A stretch of DNA of 21,354 nucleotides from assembly GCA_016789785.1 (NCBI GenBank), contig JAEUQE010000160.1, forward strand, positions 1 through 21,354, written 5' to 3'. Made by a program: the position numbers and the translations under genes. Below are positions 1 to 8,817 of this stretch, one piece after another; the stretch's first letter is position 1, and each line of letters begins with the position of its first letter. Source of the DNA: Bryobacterales bacterium. GTDB taxonomy: Bacteria > Acidobacteriota > Terriglobia > Bryobacterales > Bryobacteraceae. Under the pieces are notes generated by a model that was not told the DNA's origin, did not search any database, and was given only the letters and a program-made list of their open reading frames with translations.

Positions 1-147
1 TTCGCCGACGCCAGCAATGATCTTCAGAAGGCTGTCGCGGAGGGCCTCGAAGAGACGTTCTTCGGAGAAGAGAGCCATGTGTTCGGCGGTGAAGCCGTGG
101 GTACGTGCGTTCTGAGAAGCAGAGGACACTCCTGAATCGTGTTCCAC
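1..147 (-). CDS. Partial hypothetical protein, N-terminal 49 residues, last visible gene of the ars operon
   Basis: An open frame runs off the left edge of the window. The most upstream plausible start is a GTG at 145-147 whose G is also the last base of the acr3 stop codon (TAGTG overlap), which suggests translational coupling. An in-frame ATG at 76-78 is an alternative start. The visible protein contains an NARTHGFTAEH stretch followed by an acidic/hydrophobic helix-like segment (FSEERLFEALRDSLLKII). I do not recognise the family. The N-A-x-x-H-G-x-T-A motif resembles the N-termini of hypothetical proteins I associate with acidobacterial genomes, but this is a weak resemblance. No arsenate reductase P-loop (CxxxxxR) is visible in this piece. 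Its place directly after acr3 implies co-transcription with the arsenic genes; function is unknown. Confidence 0.45.
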   Translation of the reverse strand, partial: MEHDSGVSSASQNARTHGFTAEHMALFSEERLFEALRDSLLKIIAGVGE

Positions 148-1229
148 TATGCGGTCGTCCGGCAGGTGCCGATCTCCTCAAATCTGCCGTCGAAATACTT
201 TCGATTGATCCACAAGGCGACATTCACCAGTCCGATCAGCACGGGCACTTCCACAAGTGGCCCGATGACAGCCGCGAAGGCCGCGCCATGGTGGATTCCG
301 AACGTCGCGATGGCCACAGCGATCGCCAACTCGAAGTTGTTGGAAGCTGCCGTGAATGACAGTGTCGTCGCCTCGGCGTAGCGCGCGCCAACCTGTTTGC
401 TCATCCAGAACGAAGCGAAGAACATCAGCACGAAGTACACGGTGAGTGGGATCGCAACACGGATCACATCGAACGGGAGTTGCACAATCATCTCCCCTTT
501 GAGCGAGAACATGACGACGATGGTGAAGAGAAGCGAGATCAAGGTGACCGGACTGATGCGCGGTATGAACTTCGTTTCATACCAGGGCTTCCCGTGCGCC
601 CGGACGAGTGTGAAGCGCGTGATCATGCCGGCAAGAAACGGGATTCCCAGGTAGATGAAGACGCTCTTGGCGATCTCCGCCATGGAGATGTCGACTTCCA
701 CCGCCGACAGCCCGAGCCAACGTGGGACGGTCGCCAGGAAAAAGTAAGAATACACCGAGAAAAACAGCACCTGAAAGATCGAATTAAAGGCCACCAGGCC
801 AGCGGCATACTCCCTGTCCCCACGCGCAAGGTCATTCCACACGATGACCATGGCGATACATCGCGCCAGCCCAATCAGAATCAAGCCAGTCATATACTCG
901 GGCTTGTCGCGCAGGAACAGGATCGCCAGAACGAACATCAGCACCGGCCCCACCAACCAGTTCTGAATCAGGGACAGCAAGAGCACGCGCCGGTGTTGGA
1001 ATACACGGCTCAACTCCTCATACTTCACTTTCGCGAGCGGCGGATACATCATCAGAATCAGTCCGATGGCGATCGGGATGGAAGTTGTCCCGACGCTGAA
1101 CCGGTCCAGGAACGGAACAATGCCAGGAAAGAGGTATCCGGCGCCCACGCCGAGCCCCATAGCCGCGAAGATCCACAGCGTCAGAAACCTGTCCAGAAAC
1201 GACAAGCGCGGTTGAGCATCATTCGTCAT
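147..1229 (-). CDS. acr3: ACR3-family arsenite efflux permease
   Basis: Inner-membrane antiporter that extrudes As(III) (and sometimes Sb(III)) from the cytoplasm. The 360-residue length and about ten hydrophobic segments fit the ACR3 family of the BART superfamily. Family landmarks are present: the conserved cysteine in the fourth membrane segment (Cys124 within [14 protein letters not shown]), the [14 protein letters not shown] loop near residues 60-72, and the essential glutamate in SNNFELAIA (Glu300). The ATG at 1227-1229 is preceded by a purine-rich GGAAGGATAGGA stretch that serves as ribosome-binding site. It lies 30 bp downstream of the multiheme cytochrome gene and overlaps the next gene by one base, so it is part of the long ars operon controlled by the ArsR encoded near 7 kb. 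The family is clear from these residues; the exact substrate range (arsenite alone or also trivalent organoarsenicals) is not. Confidence 0.95.
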
Positions 1230-1259
1230 AGTGATCCTATCCTTCCATTGACAATAGAA

Positions 1260-3638
1260 TTATCGAACCATACTGGCGTTCTTGTCCCGATGCGCAAGCA
1301 GGACCGCTGTTTGAATCAGCAACGCGGCCGCCAGCAAGACAATAGACAGGTCGAAGACAGAGTAGGCAACCCACCATAGACCAGCGAGCATCAATCCGCC
1401 CGAAGCGCAAGCGATCAGCAGGATCCACGACAGAAACCGTTTGATCACTCCCGGAGGAAGAACGAACGCCGCCACCCCCGCCGCCAGAATCACAATTCCG
1501 GAAACCCAGAAGTGGTTGGCGTCCAGCGTAAACCGCTGAAAGGTCATGTACTCCAGAAGCTTTGGCGACAGGGCGGCTGTCGAGAGCGCGATCAACCCGG
1601 TGCCCCATACAAACCATCCGGCCCGCGCTCCGTACCCGGCTGACGCACGCTCCAACCTGCGGCCGACGGCGACAGCAATCCATCCAAGCGCCGTGATCAA
1701 CAGGATGCCGTAGAGCGCCGGCTTCAACGCGACCTCGCGGAAGGCGCCCAGACGGACCTGTGCGGCGGAGAGGCCGATCACTTGATCGTTGGACAACCAG
1801 ACGGTGTTCCCCGCTTCATCGAATGGGCGTCCAAGGTTGCGGCCTTCAAAGAAGGCGGACTGGTGATCGTGGCAATCCGTGCAGCCTCTCGCTCCGAGCG
1901 CTGCCCTTGCGGGCAGCACATTGTGGGAGTACTTGTACACGGAAGAGTATGGGGACGCCTCGTGGGACTCCTTGGCCAGCGTCCGGTATGAGGTCCCCGT
2001 GCTGTATACCCGGTCGTCGCTGACATAGACGATGCGCCGCCCGTCCAGTGGGAAGCCCGTGGCCTTCAAATGAGCGGACGTGGCCGCGAGCAGCGCATCG
2101 ATCTCCTCGGGCCGGTTCACTTCCACCATTCCGTCACCACTGTCGTCGCGAACAGCAGCCAGCCCGGCGTATTTCAGCGGGTCGTTTTTATGCGCCAGCC
2201 ACATGCCATAGAAATCCTTCATGAACAGTTGATTCAGGCCCGGCTTACCGTCCTCCTCAATCCCGACCCAGGCAGAGTGCACGCGGTCGACGGGGTATAT
2301 CTTGCCCTTGTAACGGGCCAGTGAAGGGCGAAACTCACTGGCCGATTTGTCGTTGGCCGTGAACAGTTCCAACTCGCCATAGTGGTTCCAGAAGTTCATG
2401 TCCTGGTCGTAAAACGTCCAGATTCGCTTCGGTGGCGGCATGATCCGGGGTGCGCCGTTATATACGTCGCTGGCCTGAACGAGCGCGGCCTTCGTGTAGC
2501 GGCGAGGAATGTGGCAGGTGACACATGCCACTTTCTCCAGGTGGAGCGGAGGCAGCCAGGAGTGTTTCGCGATGGGTGCTCCCAGCGTTCCCTCGGAGTG
2601 GCAGGACTCACAGGAGCGTACCGTATTATCGAGGTCATTGCGCACCCAACCTGACGGATCGTCGCCTTTGCCGATCTGATGAACCTCTTTTCCACGGATC
2701 CTCGGGTCGGACGCGTTGCGGCCCGACGTGTGGCAATCCACGCATTTCAGCCCCTTGGCCAAATGAACATCGGTGTGAGCCGAAAAGGAAGCACCGCGCT
2801 TCTTCCAGTCGGGTTTGGCATGACAATGCAAGCAGGTCTCATTGCGGGGCGCGGGAGCAATGTGGATCGAAACGTTTCCGTTCTCATCAAAGAGGGCCTT
2901 GTTGTACTGAACTTTCGGCTTCTCGCCGGCTGCGACTTTGCCCGTCACCACGCCGAAACCCGCTCCCTCCGTCGCCGCCCAGCGAAAATTGAGGTTCGCC
3001 AACTGAGTGTTCCGTTTCTTGTAGTCATATTCCGGCTGGTGGCAGAGGAGGCAATCCGCTTCAATTACTCCAGTCTCCGCCCATCGCGCCTTGAAGTAGT
3101 CGCCATCCAGTCCATTGTCACCGCCGGGAGTCAGTCCGCTCGCGGGATCGCTCATCCGATGGTCATAGCGCATGCCGTCCCGGTCGTACTCAAGAGGGCC
3201 GCCGCCGGGATGGCAGTTGCCGCATGTCGCGGTGACAAAATCGAACGAGGTCATGTCGATGGTTCGCGGGTTCGTGTTCTTCTTGGCGGCCAACTGCCGG
3301 TAGAGCGGCGCGGGCGAGCACCAGTTGCCTCCGTAATTTCCTGGACTGGATGCCCATGGATACCGGGCAGCGAAGTCCTTGGGCATTGATTCTCCCTTGC
3401 CCTGCTGGAAGTGGAAACCCTGCGTGATCTTTTCGTAGTCGTGACACCCGCTGGCTCCGCAGGTTTTCTTGGGAGAATAGGGAACGTTCACCTTGGCATC
3501 GGCGGCCGGATTGATGATTTTCCCTGCTTCATCCCGCAGCGGAAAGGGTGGGCACACACCGAAGGGCTGTCGCGTAGTCTGGCCGGAGAGCCCGGTGACC
3601 AGCATTGCCGAAAACAAAGATAGTCGCAGCAGCGGCAT
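1260..3638 (-). CDS. Octaheme c-type cytochrome with a C-terminal membrane domain, inside the ars operon
   Basis: A 792-residue exported electron-transfer protein. Residues 1-20 look like a signal peptide. Eight haem-attachment sites are visible: an unusual CX4CH at residues 60-66 (CGASGCH) and seven CXXCH motifs at 139, 196, 269, 299, 343, 372 and 586. The last motif is separated from the others by about 210 residues. Residues about 640-785 contain some five hydrophobic segments, one bounded by an NHFW motif, so the haem domain should face the periplasm and be tethered to, or exchange electrons with, the inner membrane. A good AGGAG ribosome-binding site (3645-3649) precedes the ATG. The gene sits 14 bp after arsP and 30 bp before acr3. 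Octaheme proteins include hydroxylamine- and tetrathionate-reductase-like enzymes, but I cannot place this one in a named family. Electron transfer between the quinone pool and a periplasmic substrate is inference; its link to arsenic is contextual. Confidence 0.85.
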   Translation of the reverse strand: MPLLRLSLFSAMLVTGLSGQTTRQPFGVCPPFPLRDEAGKIINPAADAKVNVPYSPKKTCGASGCHDYEKITQGFHFQQGKGESMPKDFAARYPWASSPGNYGGNWCSPAPLYRQLAAKKNTNPRTIDMTSFDFVTATCGNCHPGGGPLEYDRDGMRYDHRMSDPASGLTPGGDNGLDGDYFKARWAETGVIEADCLLCHQPEYDYKKRNTQLANLNFRWAATEGAGFGVVTGKVAAGEKPKVQYNKALFDENGNVSIHIAPAPRNETCLHCHAKPDWKKRGASFSAHTDVHLAKGLKCVDCHTSGRNASDPRIRGKEVHQIGKGDDPSGWVRNDLDNTVRSCESCHSEGTLGAPIAKHSWLPPLHLEKVACVTCHIPRRYTKAALVQASDVYNGAPRIMPPPKRIWTFYDQDMNFWNHYGELELFTANDKSASEFRPSLARYKGKIYPVDRVHSAWVGIEEDGKPGLNQLFMKDFYGMWLAHKNDPLKYAGLAAVRDDSGDGMVEVNRPEEIDALLAATSAHLKATGFPLDGRRIVYVSDDRVYSTGTSYRTLAKESHEASPYSSVYKYSHNVLPARAALGARGCTDCHDHQSAFFEGRNLGRPFDEAGNTVWLSNDQVIGLSAAQVRLGAFREVALKPALYGILLITALGWIAVAVGRRLERASAGYGARAGWFVWGTGLIALSTAALSPKLLEYMTFQRFTLDANHFWVSGIVILAAGVAAFVLPPGVIKRFLSWILLIACASGGLMLAGLWWVAYSVFDLSIVLLAAALLIQTAVLLAHRDKNASMVR

Positions 3639-3652
3639 GATTTACTCCTGAA

Positions 3653-4630
3653 CTAAGTCATCAGCGCGTTGAAAAGATACCCGACACAGATAATGCCCGC
3701 GGTCATGATGGCGATGAAAGTGAACAGTAACTGTGGCCGCAGCACCTTCCGCAGGATGACCATCTCGGGCAACGACAGGGCTGTCACGGCCATCGTGAAG
3801 GAGAGCACCGTCCCCAGCGGGAGCCCTTTTCCCACCAGAGCTTCCGTGATCGGGAGTACACCCGCGATATTGGCGTACAGCGGAACCCCCAATGCCACGG
3901 CCACCGGCACGGCGAACGCGTTCCCTGGCCCCGCCCAGCGCACAATCAGGTCCGCGGGGACGTAGCCATGAATTCCCGCGCCGACACCAATTCCCACGAC
4001 GATGTACGGCCAGACCTTCGCCACGATCTCGCGCGAACTCCTCCAGCCTTCCCTCATCCGGTCCCGCAAGCTCATTGGTGGCAGGCCAGAACCGTCATCG
4101 GTAAGTCCGGCCGGAATTTGCCACACAAAGGGTTCCACCCAGCGTTCCAGGTGAAGCAATCCGATGGTGAAGCCTGCGACGATGGCCAGAGTCACGCCGA
4201 AGCCGACGTAGATCGCGGTAATCCGGAAACCGAACAAGCCCCACAACAGCGCCACCGCCACCTCATTCACCATTGGCGCGGAGATCAAGTAGGAGAACGT
4301 GACGCCCAGCGGAACACCACCCTTTAGAAACCCGATGAAAAGAGGCACTGCCGAGCAACTGCAGAATGGGGTCACCACTCCCACCGCCGCCCCAATCGTA
4401 TTTCCCAGCAGGCTCTTCCGTCCGCCAAGCCACCGGCGTACCTCACCGGCATGCAGCGAGGTCTGTATTGTTCCGACGGCGAAGCTGATCGTCAGTAAGA
4501 GCATCAGCACCTTCGGCACGTCGTAGAAGAAGAAGTGAACGCTGGCGCCGAGGTGAGAGTCCAGTGGAAGGCCGAGGACAGAGGTCACCAGCCACTTGGC
4601 CAACCAGTCGAACACTGCGAAAGGGCTCAT
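3653..4630 (-). CDS. arsP: ArsP-type organoarsenical efflux permease (DUF318/YraQ family)
   Basis: A polytopic inner-membrane protein of 325 residues with about eight hydrophobic segments. It carries the family signature TPFCSCSAVPLFIGF (about residues 86-100) with two conserved cysteines, followed by GGVPLGVTFSYLISAPMVNEVA, the hallmark of the permease family that includes ArsP. Characterised ArsP members export trivalent methylarsenite and aromatic arsenicals such as reduced roxarsone. The ATG at 4628-4630 has a GAGGAA ribosome-binding site that lies on the end of the upstream small zinc-protein gene. It is followed after 14 bp by the octaheme cytochrome gene. Many members of this superfamily are annotated only as 'permease', and the closest relatives outside ArsP are of unknown substrate. 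The ars context makes ArsP the most likely assignment. Confidence 0.85.
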   Translation of the reverse strand: MSPFAVFDWLAKWLVTSVLGLPLDSHLGASVHFFFYDVPKVLMLLLTISFAVGTIQTSLHAGEVRRWLGGRKSLLGNTIGAAVGVVTPFCSCSAVPLFIGFLKGGVPLGVTFSYLISAPMVNEVAVALLWGLFGFRITAIYVGFGVTLAIVAGFTIGLLHLERWVEPFVWQIPAGLTDDGSGLPPMSLRDRMREGWRSSREIVAKVWPYIVVGIGVGAGIHGYVPADLIVRWAGPGNAFAVPVAVALGVPLYANIAGVLPITEALVGKGLPLGTVLSFTMAVTALSLPEMVILRKVLRPQLLFTFIAIMTAGIICVGYLFNALMT

Positions 4631-4642
4631 TGCGCGGCTTCC

Positions 4643-4870
4643 TCAAGCCGAAAGCGGCAGGTGCGGATGTTCCAGGGCCTTGGCGCAGGTTGCACACAGC
4701 ACCATCCTCGCTGGAATGGGCAGTTCTTCCACCTTGTAGATGGGAGCAAGCCGCTTGAGGCGCAGCGGCGTCACACGGGCGTGCTCCAGACACAACCCGG
4801 CGAAGCAACAATGGCAAAGCCCGACGGCTTCCTGTTTCACGCCCCGGTTGGCGCATTCCATGCATTGCAT
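4643..4870 (-). CDS. Small cysteine-rich DUF2180-like zinc-binding protein
   Basis: A 75-residue protein with two or three zinc-knuckle-like cysteine clusters: CMEC near residue 3, CHCC and LCLEHA near residues 19-29, and CATC near residue 60. This layout matches the short DUF2180 family as I remember it, which is repeatedly seen beside arsenic and heavy-metal genes but whose role is not established; a metal or As(III) chaperone/sensor is only a guess. The ATG at 4868-4870 is preceded by AGGTGG about six bases upstream. It lies 52 bp after arsG and 12 bp before arsP in the same operon. No signal peptide or membrane segment is present, so it should be cytoplasmic. Confidence 0.75.
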   Translation of the reverse strand: MQCMECANRGVKQEAVGLCHCCFAGLCLEHARVTPLRLKRLAPIYKVEELPIPARMVLCATCAKALEHPHLPLSA

Positions 4871-4922
4871 AGGGCCACCTCGAATCCGATCGCCATGACG
4901 GCCTCCGTCGTCTTAGACCAAG

Positions 4923-5630
4923 CTAGGAGAAGACTTCGAACACGTAGTTGAGGGTGTAGTACAGTCCAACCAGGATGAACACAACGCCCGTCACGCGGCG
5001 GGCCCAGTATTCGAGCGCTGCCACCCGCTGGAAACCGTCACTGAGAGCTCTCGCCCCCAATCCAATCACTCCCGCAAAGAGGATCACCGGCAACCCGGTA
5101 CCCACCCCGTACAAAGAGGGCATTGCGACGGAACTCCCCGTGGCCACCGCAAGGGGGATCAGGCTGCCGAAAAACAGCGCCGCCGAAACCGGGCAAAACG
5201 ACAACGCGAACAGGGCACCAATGGCCATTGCCCCGGCAAGTCCCCATTGGCTCATGTGTTCCGTCAACGCATGGCTTGGACCGGCGCCCATCGCCCTGAC
5301 ACGAAGCAACTCCAGCACGAACATGCCTGCCAGAATCAACACTGGTCCGAGAATCTGATTCATCATGCGCTGCAGGCCATTCGAAAGGCTGACGGCGTTC
5401 ACCAGGCTGGAGATCAGCACGGACCCCAGCAGAACATACATCAGCACCCGTCCCAGCGCGTAAAGAGCTCCCGCCAGGAGGATACGCCGGGGCGCCGCAA
5501 TGCTCTTTCCGATATAGGAAATGGCGGCAATGTTGGACGCCAGCGGGCAGGGGCTGATCGATGTCAGCACTCCCAGCCACAACGCTGTTCCCGCGGCTAT
5601 CCATTGGCTCTCCGCGGCGATGGGATTCAT
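4923..5630 (-). CDS. arsG: ArsG-like aromatic arsenical efflux permease (CcdA/DsbD transmembrane family)
   Basis: A 235-residue protein with six or seven membrane segments in two related halves, each carrying a Cys-Pro pair (Cys28 in SISPCPLASN, Cys146 in SFCPVSAALFFGS). This is the arrangement of CcdA/DsbD-type thiol-electron carriers. I place it with the ArsG branch described from Shewanella arsEFG-type operons, where ArsG exports aromatic amino-arsenicals. The long open frame extends upstream to 5840, but the true start is the ATG at 5628-5630. It overlaps the upstream stop by one base (TGATG), has a GGAAG ribosome-binding site, and begins the conserved region. An alternative reading is that it moves electrons across the membrane to the thioredoxin-fold protein encoded just upstream rather than exporting arsenicals. 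Family assignment is confident; transported species is inference. Confidence 0.8.
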   Translation of the reverse strand: MNPIAAESQWIAAGTALWLGVLTSISPCPLASNIAAISYIGKSIAAPRRILLAGALYALGRVLMYVLLGSVLISSLVNAVSLSNGLQRMMNQILGPVLILAGMFVLELLRVRAMGAGPSHALTEHMSQWGLAGAMAIGALFALSFCPVSAALFFGSLIPLAVATGSSVAMPSLYGVGTGLPVILFAGVIGLGARALSDGFQRVAALEYWARRVTGVVFILVGLYYTLNYVFEVFS

Positions 5631-6108
5631 CAAAGCTTCCGCAAGTAGTCGCGGACCTCCCGTTCCACGTAGCTCTGCATGGCAGGCTTGTCCCCCACCA
5701 GTTCCCATGTATCGTTCAGGACTTTGTATTCCTGCTGCCGGCCATTCGCTTCGCGAACAAGAACCAGCGATTTGGTAAAAAGCCCGTAGTCCTGAATGAA
5801 GTGCCGGTTCTCCGGCAATTGCACATTGACCAGACGCCATTCCAACGCGCTGCCGTAAGCTCGGGCCGAAAACGCTGGTGAATTACTTCCTTCGAGTAAG
5901 CTTCGATGTTACGGCAGGTGGTGCAACGAACCGTGACATGAAAGTAATAAGCGATGATCTTAGCAGGGCCTGTCGAAGCTTCGAGGGTGTCCCCGGCTTT
6001 CTGCTTCGCGGCTGGTGCGGGCGCGCTGTTACCCCGGAAGGCGATCCAACCAAGGCTCACCCCGACAAAGGCGAGTAGAGCGGCCGTGACCAGCCTTCGC
6101 GGATTCAT
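5630..6108 (-). pseudogene. arsF: ArsF-like exported thioredoxin-fold protein, broken by a one-base frameshift
   Basis: Residues 1-25 form a signal-anchor (MNPRRLVTAALLAFVGVSLG), followed by a linker and a thioredoxin-like domain with a CTTC active-site motif (Cys62, Cys65). The start ATG (6106-6108) overlaps the upstream stop as ATGA. The frame holds through KEVIHQRF (residue 80), and the coherent continuation (LEWRLVNVQLPENRHFIQDY...YLRKL, stop at 5630-5632) lies in another frame. The span is 479 bp, one short of a multiple of three. Adding one A to the AAAA run at 5869-5872 (T-run on the coding strand) joins the halves into a 159-residue protein. The family is the ArsF-type partner of ArsE and ArsG, linked to reduction of nitro-aromatic arsenicals. 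The break may be a sequencing/assembly error, a real mutation, or a -1 slippage site; the perfect flanking overlaps favour an error or a very recent event. Confidence 0.75.
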
Positions 6109-6752
6109 AAAACCGCCCGCACCGGCGCTGCCGGCAGGCAACGGCGAAGCGCCTCGACCGCTTCGGCAACGCGCTCTTCGGTAACCGGAGTCTTGCCCTT
6201 CTCCCACCCGAGGTCCGTCACACGGAAATGCGCGAAGCCCGAAAAGCCGTTCTTTTCCATCGTCTTCCTGGCACAATCACCAGCACAGCCGTCCACGACG
6301 AACAGGCGGCCGGCTGCTTTCGTGGTCTGGACCATCGGCTCCACATCGGCCGCGATCCCGGCAAGGCAGAACATCCTGGCTTCTTTGTTCTTGTGGATCG
6401 CGCGCACTGCCCGGTCCGCGATCTCCGCCGTATCCGCCGCGCCGGAGCAACAGAACATCATGTAAACAGCTTCCTGAGTGGAGCACTTTGGTGCGGTTTC
6501 CATTCCTGCATTCTCCTTCGCTTCACTCAACAGATTTCTGATCTCAGCCGGGCTGGCGACCTTGCCGGCCAGCTTCACTTTCCCATCCACCGCCAGAGCG
6601 GGCGTGGTCATGACGCTGAACTTGACGATGTCGGCGATGCCGGTCACCTTCTCCAGTTCAAAGTCGATCCCCATCTCACGGGCAGCCTGCTCGGCGTTGG
6701 CGGCGAGTTGCTTGCACTTCGAGCAGCCTGTACCCAGTATCTGTATCTTCAT
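6105..6752 (-). CDS. Fusion of an ArsE-like small thioredoxin domain and a DGC-type putative zinc-binding domain
   Basis: A 215-residue cytoplasmic protein with two domains. Residues 1-78 are a small glutaredoxin/thioredoxin of the TM0996/MTH895 type, with the CSKC redox motif at residues 10-13 and the cis-proline segment SVMTTPALAVDG. Residues about 88-205 match the DGC family: a CCSG motif at 101-104, MFCLAGIAA (Cys129), and VDGCAGDC at 153-160. Both units commonly occur in arsenic operons as separate genes; here they are one frame with an internal Met84 near the junction that could be an internal start. The ATG is preceded by an AAAGGA ribosome-binding site, and the gene begins 12 bp after arsR. 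Thiol-disulfide reduction of arsenicals, or arsenic/zinc binding by the cysteines, is the likely role. It may serve as electron donor to the ArsF/ArsG pair encoded next. Confidence 0.8.
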   Translation of the reverse strand: MKIQILGTGCSKCKQLAANAEQAAREMGIDFELEKVTGIADIVKFSVMTTPALAVDGKVKLAGKVASPAEIRNLLSEAKENAGMETAPKCSTQEAVYMMFCCSGAADTAEIADRAVRAIHKNKEARMFCLAGIAADVEPMVQTTKAAGRLFVVDGCAGDCARKTMEKNGFSGFAHFRVTDLGWEKGKTPVTEERVAEAVEALRRCLPAAPVRAVL

Positions 6753-6764
6753 CCCGCGGTCCTT

Positions 6765-7091
6765 TCAATGGATGCAAACCAGTTCTCTCTTCCTCTCAGC
6801 GGCGGCCATGACATCGCCCACGCAGTCGAAGAAGTGAAGAACGCAAGGCATACTGAGGCTGTAATAGACCTGCATCCCGCGCTTGTCATCGGCGACGATA
6901 CCGGCGGACTTGAGCACCGAGAGGTGCTTGCTCACCGTGGACATGTCGGCGCCCACCATGGCGGTGAGTTCACAGACGCACCGCTCCCCTTTGGAGAGCA
7001 CGTCGATGATGTAGAGCCGCGAAGGGTGGGCGAGTGCCTTGAGAATTCGGGCTCGCGCCTCGAATTGAGCTTGAGTCCTGGCATCCATCAT
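6765..7091 (-). CDS. arsR: ArsR/SmtB-family arsenic-responsive repressor
   Basis: A 108-residue winged-helix repressor, first gene of the ars operon. It shows the ArsR core: ILKALAHPSRLYIIDVL, then ERCVCELTAMVG with the As(III)-binding CxC pair (Cys38, Cys40), then the recognition helix STVSKHLSVLKSAGIV and the wing GMQVYYSL. Further cysteines near residue 83-90 and the C-terminal VCIH could supply a third arsenic ligand. Two adjacent ATGs (7089-7091 and 7086-7088) can start the protein; a TTG at 7116-7118 in frame lies inside the operator and is less likely. The protein should repress transcription from the region to its right, where two matching 20-bp palindromes lie, and release DNA on binding As(III) or Sb(III). 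Confidence 0.93.
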   Translation of the reverse strand: MMDARTQAQFEARARILKALAHPSRLYIIDVLSKGERCVCELTAMVGADMSTVSKHLSVLKSAGIVADDKRGMQVYYSLSMPCVLHFFDCVGDVMAAAERKRELVCIH

Positions 7092-7108
7092 CCTGGCTCG
7101 GGGCAAGC

Positions 7109-7128
7109 ACTTGGCCAATCGGCCAAGT
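7109..7128. promoter_or_regulatory. ArsR operator candidate 1 (perfect palindrome)
   Basis: Perfect 8-bp inverted repeat with a 4-bp centre: arms ACTTGGCC and GGCCAAGT. It lies 17 bp upstream of the arsR start, so bound repressor would block the transcript start or the ribosome-binding site. It shares the pattern A-Y-TTGGC...GGCCAA-R-T with a second site further upstream, which supports a common binding protein. The assignment to ArsR is inferred from position and symmetry. Confidence 0.75.
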
Positions 7129-7171
7129 ACGCTCCAGCCGCGTTTTCAGGCCTTTCGCCGAAACGGTCAGC

Positions 7172-7191
7172 ATTTGGCGATTGGGCCAAAT
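7172..7191. promoter_or_regulatory. ArsR operator candidate 2 (near-perfect palindrome)
   Basis: Inverted repeat with arms ATTTGGC and GCCAAAT around a 6-bp centre, same 20-bp length and consensus as the site at 7109-7128. The two centres are 63 bp apart, about six helical turns, so two dimers would sit on the same DNA face. A possible -35 (TTGAGG, 7193-7198, minus strand) lies next to it, so this site would fall between -35 and -10 of the ars promoter; the -10 is not convincing. Confidence 0.7.
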
Positions 7192-7250
7192 ACCTCAATC
7201 GCGTGATCTCACCCAGCAATTCCGCACACCCCAGCCAGCCCGCCCGGCAG

Positions 7251-7520
7251 CTAATGGATAAAAGCTTGCAACTGGCACTGAAGCACATTGTTCGCCAGCG
7301 GTCGGATTCTCTCCTGCCTGACGACATACGAGGCCATCACCTTGAAGCGATTCTTGCGGAGGTAGTAGTTCAGCCCGAGTGTGGTCTGCCTGGTGTCTTT
7401 CCCGTTGAGCAGACTCACGTTCGGATCGAAGCCCTCCACTTTCACGACTGCTTGCAGTTTAGGACGGATGAATTTGGCTGCCTGGATGTACCACCCTTCC
7501 GCGATCAGATCGGTTCCAGA
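7251..7520 (-). pseudogene. 3' remnant of an outer-membrane phosphate-selective-porin-type gene
   Basis: About 88 codons ending at a stop at 7251-7253 encode a beta-barrel C-terminus: GWYIQAAKF, then LQAVVKVEGFDPN, then TTLGLNYYLRKNRFKVMASYV, then a final strand ending QLQAFIH. The alternating aromatic/polar strands and the 'TTLGLNYYL' pattern fit the porin O/P (phosphate-selective porin) family. The upstream part of the same open frame shows no similarity to a barrel and has no signal peptide, so the gene is truncated at its 5' side near 7520. Such porins elsewhere pair with phosphate or oxyanion uptake; here only a relic remains beside the ars promoter. Not expected to be functional. Confidence 0.6.
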
Positions 7521-7685
7521 CGTTTGGGCACGGTGAGCTCTGAGTTTGTGTCCCGAGGATTGCCAACAATGGCATGGTGCTGTGACCACGGCACCCGAAC
7601 CGGGGGGAATCATTTGTTCAGCTAAGGGATTTTTCGGTGCAACTTGGCAGATTCGGGTGACATCTTGCACGGTAATAGGTGTAGC

Positions 7686-8276
7686 ATGCCTCGGCGATTT
7701 CTCATTGCTCTTGTACTCGCGGGAATCAGTGGGCTGCCCGCTGCCTGCCAAACCGAAGTGGAAGTCAGGAAGACTCCTATTGGCGTGCAGTATCGCATCA
7801 CGGATGGTGGTGTGGAGGCGGTACTCACGGCTGGGGGCAAGCGTGCGTCGTACCGGGCGAAGGTCAGCCCGAACGCAACGCCCGCGCGGCAGTTTCAACT
7901 GCTTGGGAAGCTGTTTGCGAGAGTACAGCAGGAGGGTCCACTGCCAGCGGCCTTCTCCTTCGCGATGGGGGGCTACGAAGAGCCGGTGGAGCACTTGGCG
8001 CGGACAGCCGCATGCAGTTCGGACTGGGACGGAGCGCGCGGGCGGCCCGTGAAGGGCACGGCGAATGCGTATCTGTTGAAGCAGCTTTCGAATGAGGCGG
8101 CGTTCCGGTCGCTGTCGGAGTTCTTCCGGGGAATGGGGTACCGCAGCCGGGCCGTGTCGGTCGAGCAGATTCTCCTGGAAACCTGTTCCAAACCACAGTG
8201 CGACGCGCGATGCGCGGGGGCCGGCAAGCAAAGGGTGCCCGCCAGCGCGGCGATCAGCTACGAAATCTTCAAATAA
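7686..8276 (+). CDS. Secreted protein of unknown function, upstream of the Tae4-like pair
   Basis: A 196-residue protein. The open frame reaches back to 7644, but the ATG at 7686 begins a clear signal peptide (MPRRFLIALVLAGISGLPAAC), so it is chosen as start. The mature part has a beta-rich N-terminal stretch (TEVEVRKTPIGVQYRI), a central helix-rich region and a C-terminal part with three or four cysteines (ETCSKPQCDARC) that could form disulfides in the periplasm. I do not recognise a family. It lies 55 bp upstream of the first of two Tae4-like amidase genes on the same strand, so the three may be co-transcribed. A periplasmic partner next to peptidoglycan amidases raises the possibility of an immunity or chaperone role, but no sequence motif proves it. 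Confidence 0.65.
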   Translation: MPRRFLIALVLAGISGLPAACQTEVEVRKTPIGVQYRITDGGVEAVLTAGGKRASYRAKVSPNATPARQFQLLGKLFARVQQEGPLPAAFSFAMGGYEEPVEHLARTAACSSDWDGARGRPVKGTANAYLLKQLSNEAAFRSLSEFFRGMGYRSRAVSVEQILLETCSKPQCDARCAGAGKQRVPASAAISYEIFK

Positions 8277-8331
8277 GCGGCAACGGTCCCGACGGGAGTC
8301 CGCTGACCGCGCAGCAACGGAGGAAAACAAG

Positions 8332-8817
8332 ATGGCAAAACTGCCACAATGGTCCGTCTTTTGGGGCCAGTATTACGACTACATCAACTTCACTTCGCCC
8401 TACGTGAAAGAAATGATCGGAGGCGCGGTGAATGCGAGTTGGATCACGAACACGTGCGCAATCCGCATGAGCTACGCAATGAACTACATCGGCTTCCCGA
8501 TTCCGAAGGGATTTCCCAACTTGAACACGATCAAGGGCGGCGACGGGATGCGGTACTCGTTTCGCGTACGGGAACTGCGGCCTTGGCTCCGTCACACCTT
8601 TGGTGCGCCGGACTTCGAGGTGACGAAGAAGGCCAACGAGGCGTTCGACCGGAAGCAGATCGAATCGATGCTGGGGCTGATTGCGTTCGACATCAACTTC
8701 AAAGACGCCACGGGCCATCTGGATGCGACCTTCAACGGCACGTTCAGTTCGGAAGGCAACATTTCGAAGGACTACTTCGCTCTGGCGACGAAGGTTTCGA
8801 TCTGGAAGTGCGCCTGA
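8332..8817 (+). CDS. tae4: Tae4-like peptidoglycan amidase (T6SS amidase effector family), copy 1
   Basis: A 161-residue protein with no signal peptide. It matches Tae4, the effector family with an NlpC/P60-like papain fold that cuts between D-Glu and meso-DAP in peptidoglycan. Visible landmarks: MIGGAV (residues 28-33), then NTCAIRMSYAMNYIGFPI (residues 40-57) with catalytic Cys42, and ATGHLD (126-131) with catalytic His129 and Asp131. The spacing agrees with Salmonella Tae4, whose corresponding stretch I recall as ACPIRMSYVLNATGFPI. The start is the ATG at 8332 with a strong GGAGG ribosome-binding site at 8319-8323. A longer upstream open frame in this register is spurious. A second copy follows after 101 bp. 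No T6SS structural gene lies in the window, so delivery route is unknown; a domesticated or antibacterial role remains inference. Confidence 0.85.
   Translation: MAKLPQWSVFWGQYYDYINFTSPYVKEMIGGAVNASWITNTCAIRMSYAMNYIGFPIPKGFPNLNTIKGGDGMRYSFRVRELRPWLRHTFGAPDFEVTKKANEAFDRKQIESMLGLIAFDINFKDATGHLDATFNGTFSSEGNISKDYFALATKVSIWKCA

Follow-up and report, generated by a model that had tools for sequence, protein, structure and literature searches.

The stretch of DNA considered here, referred to as the window, comprises positions 1 to 21,354 of contig JAEUQE010000160.1 from a Bryobacterales bacterium, and its minus strand carries a row of arsenic resistance (ars) genes in which a large multihaem cytochrome is embedded. 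The order on this strand is arsR, a gene for an ArsE-type thioredoxin fused to a DGC domain, an arsF-like gene, arsG, a small Cys-rich open reading frame (ORF), a gene for an ArsP_1-family permease, the cytochrome gene, and acr3 (Table 1). The permease gene ends at 3653 and the cytochrome gene starts at 3638, leaving a gap of 14 bp, while 30 bp separate the cytochrome stop at 1260 from the acr3 start at 1229. The ORF, its haem motifs, and both gaps confirm an earlier sequence-only reading, which described an octahaem cytochrome with a polytopic C-terminus between arsP and acr3. Based on the spacing, the shared strand, and a palindrome near arsR, the row from arsR to acr3 is a putative ArsR-controlled operon. 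In general terms, the cytochrome is quite probably an ars-associated, quinone-linked enzyme of the octahaem tetrathionate reductase (OTR) fold with a catalytic cysteine or selenocysteine (Sec).

Table 1. Coordinates of the cytochrome, its parts, and the surrounding features in the window.
Feature	Position	Strand	Basis or remark
acr3 arsenite efflux transporter	147..1229	-	TIGR00832, 458 bits (cut-off 283)
Octahaem c-type cytochrome with C-terminal membrane domain, 792 aa	1260..3638	-	ORF; eight haem motifs
Membrane module, about five helices, residues 625-782	1293..1766	-	structure model, alignment
Soluble OTR-like octahaem domain, residues ~24-622	1773..3569	-	
Cys107 codon (TGC)	3318..3320	-	non-haem Cys in 83/83 rows
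Cys29 codon, second conserved non-haem Cys	3552..3554	-	82/83 rows
ArsP_1-family permease	3653..4630	-	PF03773, 6.6e-66, 222.9 bits (cut-off 32.3)
Small Cys-rich ORF, 75 aa	4643..4870	-	similar ORFs directly upstream of arsP in L002, L003, L004 (46-67% identity)
arsG	4923..5630	-	NF040495, 263 bits (cut-off 200)
arsF-like gene, interrupted reading frame	5630..6108	-	NF040494 match on N-terminal piece, 39.8 bits, under cut-off 60
ArsE-type thioredoxin fused to DGC domain	6105..6752	-	TIGR00412, PF08859
arsR, likely ATG 7091	6765..7118	-	NF033788, 90.6 bits (cut-off 55)
Perfect palindrome ACTTGGCC-N4-GGCCAAGT, candidate ArsR operator	7109..7128	.	~18 bp ahead of likely arsR ATG
Second palindrome, 3 mismatches	7172..7191	.	

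The cytochrome contains eight haem c motifs, one of which is a CX4CH motif (residues 60-66) while the other seven are CXXCH motifs with their haem His at positions 143, 200, 273, 303, 347, 376, and 590. The Cys and His residues of these motifs are invariant in an alignment of 83 rows, as are Lys279 and Lys280. Outside the motifs, the only Cys residues conserved in at least 85% of the rows are C29 and C107. The N-terminus forms a hydrophobic, signal-like helix, as judged by eye and from the structure model rather than with a signal predictor. The C-terminal part has about five long helices with hydrophobic stretches in the model, and the side chains K639, D706, and H709 of this membrane helix bundle are invariant in 74 aligned rows. 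The predicted anatomy is consistent with an electron link between the membrane and the periplasm.

The fold of the cytochrome was probed by several routes. The Pfam matches are to generic multihaem models only, no model of the NCBIfam scan scored over its cut-off, and sequence searches of the PDB (single and profile) gave no match. Foldseek found nothing at E <= 0.001 with either of the two cytochrome models. A second look at both models with VIA-align identified 1sp3 as the nearest fold relative, an octahaem cytochrome known as tetrathionate reductase. By computation, the window cytochrome has the OTR fold with eight haem c groups and is homologous to OTR. True OTRs possess an invariant Cys in the motif NNFC, and the order haem 1, His, Cys, haem 2 is the same in the window cytochrome; this Cys and a lysine-ligated haem form the OTR active site. 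C107 and K279/K280 are colinear with C112 and K199 of OTR, but hhalign did not pair them and the structure model is weak in this region. Because the two Cys columns were left unpaired, the equivalence of C107 and the OTR Cys is put forward as a proposal only. Separately, a second multihaem cytochrome adjoins the true OTR genes of L063 (2-1426), L064 (2781-4247), and L068, and that of L064 shares 28% identity over 126 aa with the window cytochrome.

The cytochrome is not an orphan, as 1,060 of 7,997 scored candidates are homologues at E <= 1e-3; details of homologues are drawn from 120 listed ones. Sixty loci were located among genome contigs with the exact patterns FWNHYGE and YGGNWCSP, and together with the window they make up the 61 loci described below, which include frame-broken, split cytochromes (e.g., L049, L050, L056, and L057). 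Since YGGNWCSP includes C107, the conservation of this residue in the locus rows is partly built in, and forms with TGA at this codon cannot be found by that pattern; protein databases likewise miss them. By record title, the 60 loci fall into about a dozen groups: Acidobacteriota, Aminicenantes, Desulfobacterota, Myxococcota, Nitrospirota, Bacteroidota, Planctomycetota, Verrucomicrobia with Kiritimatiellae, Gemmatimonadetes, Ignavibacteria with Kapabacteria, Leptospiraceae, and KSB1. The distribution is sporadic, with the family present in 8 of 396 Acidobacteriota genomes and 2 of 395 Bacteroidota genomes (both already in the set). In Desulfobacterota, 49 of 395 genomes matched at E <= 1e-50 (51 matches, distant relatives included). 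The separate Desulfobacterota draw comprises 20 loci from 19 genomes, of which 17 (at least 44% identity; L101, L102, and L103 are close kin) are treated as family members and three (33-35% identity) are counted apart. Four additional Acidobacteriota loci were not used as independent evidence because three of them (L120, L121, and L123) duplicate L048, L022, and L010; the only new one, L122, has acr3 451 bp away from the cytochrome. Phyla are interleaved in the tree, which suggests that the family spread by horizontal transfer, and a search of plasmids found no homologue of the cytochrome.

The association of the cytochrome with arsenic genes recurs across these loci. Hidden Markov models (HMMs) of the neighbour families detected acr3 or arsP no further than 10 kb from the cytochrome in 35 of the 61 loci, spanning eleven groups by record title. 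This is the stricter count; a looser one (40/61) includes the CcdA-like proteins of the ArsG cluster. Among loci flanked by 10 kb or more the figure is 26/43 (such loci number 39 or 43, as the flank thresholds were placed slightly differently in two counts), and in the Desulfobacterota draw it is 9/17 for family loci and 0/3 for the distant relatives. Homologues do not lie mostly away from arsenic genes, the outcome that would have counted against the sequence-only reading, and the survey supports its main idea. A whole-genome HMM search gave an ArsG or ArsP match within 10 kb of the cytochrome in 27 of 41 genomes, compared with at most 0.52 expected from match density, and at 10-20 kb in five more. 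True OTR genes in the same genomes served as a control and lie near ArsG or ArsP in 0/10 cases. The linkage is recurrent and exceeds chance, and homology as well as conserved linkage excludes a chance origin of the observation.

The commonest partner families across loci are ArsE-like, ArsR, ArsG-cluster, ArsP, and ArsC proteins. Within 400 bp, the nearest named upstream neighbours are arsP (9), arsR (5; L006, L018, L047, L051, and L059), and rhodanese (5), while those downstream are a porin (7), arsC (5), an arsE-like gene (5), and acr3 (4). Compact units are also seen, consisting of arsR and the cytochrome (L006 and L018) or of arsR, a rhodanese, and the cytochrome (L025, L029, L031, L032, and L039), most of them on short contigs. 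In Acidobacteriota, ArsG co-occurs with the cytochrome in 4 of 8 genomes versus 30 of the 388 others (Fisher 0.0025).

The presence of arsE, arsF-like, and arsG genes in the same row raises the possibility that the cytochrome is a nitro-reductase that cooperates with ArsEFG on aromatic nitro-arsenicals, a link the sequence-only reading had suggested, and OTR is reported to have a role in nitrite reduction. This explanation is very unlikely, as ArsG scores over its curated cut-off in only 22 of the 41 cytochrome genomes, the arsF frame of the window is broken, and the family spans about a dozen title-named groups even though nitro-arsenicals are recent, man-made compounds. The compact units, together with the ArsG count, leave this part of the earlier proposal weak.

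The rhodanese units and the fold bear on a second alternative, in which the cytochrome is a reductase of a sulfur compound (tetrathionate, thiosulfate, sulfite, or polysulfide) and the resulting periplasmic sulfide or thiols capture As(III) after its export, in the form of thioarsenic or sulfide. The tetrathionate reductase activity of 1sp3 is in line with this idea, as are the rhodanese in 14 of the 61 loci, TauE in 11, and the five arsR-rhodanese-cytochrome units. Nevertheless, it is rather unlikely: the cytochrome reaches only 44.6 bits with the OTR model TIGR04315 (cut-off 375), true OTR genes are without ars linkage, and the rhodanese-like proteins of L029 (1237-1659) and L037 (12405-12839) have an Asp at the position generally held by the active-site Cys. 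Both of these proteins have a C-terminal CMCQL motif.

A further line of evidence comes from residue 107. Many matches in the Desulfobacterota sample have exactly one in-frame TGA, and in 11 of 11 close forms this TGA aligns with C107. At this site, the 17 family loci comprise 11 with TGA and five with Cys; L110 does not cover the site, although the tree labels it as Cys. The three distant forms have TGA at the same motif, with an alignment offset of two columns. The candidate selenocysteine forms are thus L101-L109, L111, L112, and L117-L119. The 11 close TGA forms retain the eight haem motifs, C29, H76, H292, H320, H359, H366, H572, K280, K324, and K404, while K279 is present in 10/11 and H259, H419, and H454 are variable. 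A hairpin loop AGTT begins 22 nt past the TGA in close forms and 16 nt past it in distant ones, and the residues QLA there are encoded by CAG TTG GCG in 14/14 TGA forms, compared with 0/27 Cys forms with a readable QLA. A strict rule for a hairpin resembling a selenocysteine insertion sequence (SECIS) selects 10/14 TGA forms (four fail) and 0/64 Cys forms. The claim of a SECIS is based on this codon and hairpin test and not on simple folding, as the z-scores for the 50 nt after the TGA are weak (mean -1.1 for 14 TGA forms versus -0.06 for 64 Cys forms, mononucleotide shuffles). Furthermore, selA is found in 19/20 TGA genomes. From the codon, hairpin, and selA pattern it follows that the Desulfobacterota TGA forms are very probably selenoproteins, and that position 107 is very probably a redox-active site. 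Among the Cys-form genomes tested, selA is present in 0/7 from Bacteroidota, Ignavibacteria, or Kapabacteria. A second cytochrome copy in L007 (17344-19799) likewise has TGA at the C107 site; the bases after it are CAGTTGGCG, as in other TGA forms, and its frame shifts further on; no selA match was found in this genome.

The membrane part of the protein has been exchanged repeatedly. A PF01292 cytochrome b is fused in place of the window-type module in L016, L019, and L036, and in six of the 120 listed homologues, while in L055 a one-helix tail is followed by a separate PF01292 gene. Branches of the tree with a support of at least 95 force six changes of the module label. Such recurrent swaps with a quinone-type cytochrome b suggest that the window membrane module may also meet quinone.

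Taken together, these results lead to the reading, held at a probability of roughly 40%, that the cytochrome represents an undescribed family of quinone-linked octahaem (seleno)enzymes forming a dedicated arsenic-resistance module, which would carry out the periplasmic redox conversion of an arsenical at the Cys/Sec site. The direction favoured, at a like probability, is reductive, with the cytochrome serving as a quinol-to-periplasm reductase that acts on the arsenical at Cys/Sec107. First, the membrane module would exchange electrons with menaquinol. Next, the electrons would pass along the eight haems to an active site in which Cys107, or the selenocysteine that takes its place in some relatives, would sit near a haem and the conserved lysines. 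Finally, the thiolate or selenolate would reduce an arsenical outside the inner membrane by attacking either its As atom or an S or O atom bound to As; the export of arsenicals would fall to Acr3, ArsP, and ArsG. Sulfate reducers rely on menaquinone, with which As(III) oxidation is energetically uphill; both points speak for the reductive direction.

The same exporter linkage would also suit an enzyme that oxidizes trivalent arsenicals after their export, be it As(III) or its methyl or aromatic forms, passes the electrons to quinone, and locks arsenic outside the cell as a less permeant pentavalent anion. The location of acr3 and arsP would place the substrate of such an enzyme on the right side of the membrane, the benefit for resistance would be direct, and As(III) binds both Cys and Sec. 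This explanation is unlikely, as the potentials are unfavourable with menaquinone, the quinone used by Desulfobacterota and Bacteroidota, which include many of the hosts, and OTR is known as a reductase.

Several observations weigh against a dedicated arsenical reductase. The 10 kb on either side of the cytochrome contain neither acr3 nor arsP in 26 of the 61 loci and 8 of the 17 Desulfobacterota loci (many of the contigs are short), and the pair is missing near 6/11 close TGA forms and 3/3 distant ones. In eight loci whose flanks extend for 10 kb or more (L007, L011, L021, L035, L037, L044, L053, and L054), acr3, arsP, arsG, arsC, and arsM are all absent within 10 kb. Neighbours related to sulfur or metals recur, with CDF in 9 and RND in 8 of the 61 loci in addition to the rhodanese and TauE genes counted above. 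The window codon 107 is TGC, such that this copy encodes Cys and not Sec and has no in-frame UGA. In addition, selA is present in 15/26 Cys-form genomes tested and absent from one of the 20 TGA genomes. Lastly, pentavalent arsenicals that are reduced outside the cell often become more toxic, and the benefit of such a reductase is consequently not obvious.

Some of these points would be accommodated if the cytochrome served in metal(loid) or selenium redox chemistry generally, being frequent in resistance islands but having no role specific to arsenic. The CDF, RND, FmdE, and TauE neighbours and the eight loci devoid of a core ars gene agree with such a role, and a selenoprotein cytochrome, ExtKL, has been linked to the reduction of selenite and tellurite (PMC5877670). 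However, the commonest partners of the cytochrome are ars families and the linkage is far above expectation, making this explanation quite unlikely.

Additional features of the window concern its regulation and the neighbouring genes. Two palindrome sites are observed near arsR (Table 1), compared with a shuffle mean of 0.08, and no shuffle reached two. Palindromes resembling these occur close to arsR in near relatives of the window (L003, CTTGGC-N6-GCCAAG; L058, TTGGCC-N4-GGCCAA), and TTTCGTA/TACGAAA palindromes located ~60-80 bp before arsR are common to five Bacteroidota units (L025, L029, L032, L039, and L047). Promoter and terminator scans of positions 1-8400 were uninformative, with matches no more numerous than in shuffles. 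The ArsP_1 permease scores under the SaoE and SO_0444 equivalog cut-offs. The arsG product has weak DsbD_TM similarity (20.8 bits, under the cut-off of 27.1). The N- and C-terminal parts of the arsF-like gene are in different frames, while its relatives in L002, L003, and L058 are intact; the break may reflect true pseudogene formation or an error in sequencing. The region 4923-6752 (minus strand) encodes a thioredoxin (ArsE), a DsbD_TM-like protein with two Cys-Pro motifs recognized by eye (ArsG), and an apparently membrane-anchored CxxC protein, also recognized by eye (ArsF). These proteins resemble a split DsbD thiol relay across the membrane and might supply reductant for the periplasm or for haem attachment. 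An ORF upstream of arsR (7251-8330, minus strand) gives a weak match to a phosphate-selective porin in its C-terminal third and appears degenerate. In L001-L004, L042, and L058, though not in the window, a WrbA-like PF03358 flavoprotein with an RR-type N-terminus lies beside the ars genes and the cytochrome. Of three such proteins scanned, only that of L042 scored over the cut-off of the twin-arginine translocation model, and an assignment of the flavoprotein as ArsH-like was rejected since it is closer to WrbA.

The usual picture of arsenic resistance is one of cytoplasmic conversion and efflux, with electrons supplied by cytoplasmic thiols. If the favoured reading is correct, a quinone-linked octahaem enzyme in the ars operons of eleven title-named groups would add a periplasmic step connected to the respiratory chain and would provide the first known case of a multihaem cytochrome at work in an ars resistance operon. 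The interchange of Cys and TGA singles out one residue of likely function, and the gene could serve as a marker of arsenic transformation outside the reach of surveys that target arr, aio, ars, and acr3. The OTR fold, the cysteine/selenocysteine site, and the membrane-module swaps go beyond the sequence-only reading. Its claim of novelty stands to the extent that no description of an octahaem cytochrome in an ars operon, of its ars linkage, or of its Cys/TGA site was found by title or start of abstract among the matches listed from the open-access literature, a scope outside which subscription papers mostly fall.

Several known systems are close to the cytochrome. The regulator and transporter families of the window row are the same as those of ArsEFG/ArsP/Acr3 operons, and no multihaem cytochrome is named as an ars component in the published ars gene lists consulted. 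Arr and Arx/Aio perform periplasmic, quinone-linked arsenic redox chemistry, as proposed for the cytochrome, but these are molybdopterin enzymes, and no molybdopterin domain is found among the matches of the nine window proteins scanned. In contrast to the OTRs of TIGR04315, in which it falls far short of membership, the cytochrome is ~260-320 residues longer than the aligned OTR frames, has a membrane module of its own, and is linked to ars genes. ExtKL of Geobacter is a published multihaem selenoprotein candidate whose gene cluster includes a rhodanese, a porin, and a cytochrome b (PMC5877670). The cytochrome family has the same kinds of partners; unlike it, ExtKL has five predicted haems and a cluster for which the text consulted describes no ars genes. 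The ExtKL model NF040886 gave no match at E <= 10 among nine proteins scanned, including that of the window and five TGA forms, a search in which the HMMER filters drop most weak matches. A 2026 review places ExtKL and, as annotated in GenBank, the TIGR04315 octahaem family among the selenoproteins (PMC13188914). Selenocysteine in a multihaem cytochrome is, in light of these listings, a known idea; the ars linkage of the window cytochrome's family and its Cys/TGA site are absent from the titles and abstract starts listed.

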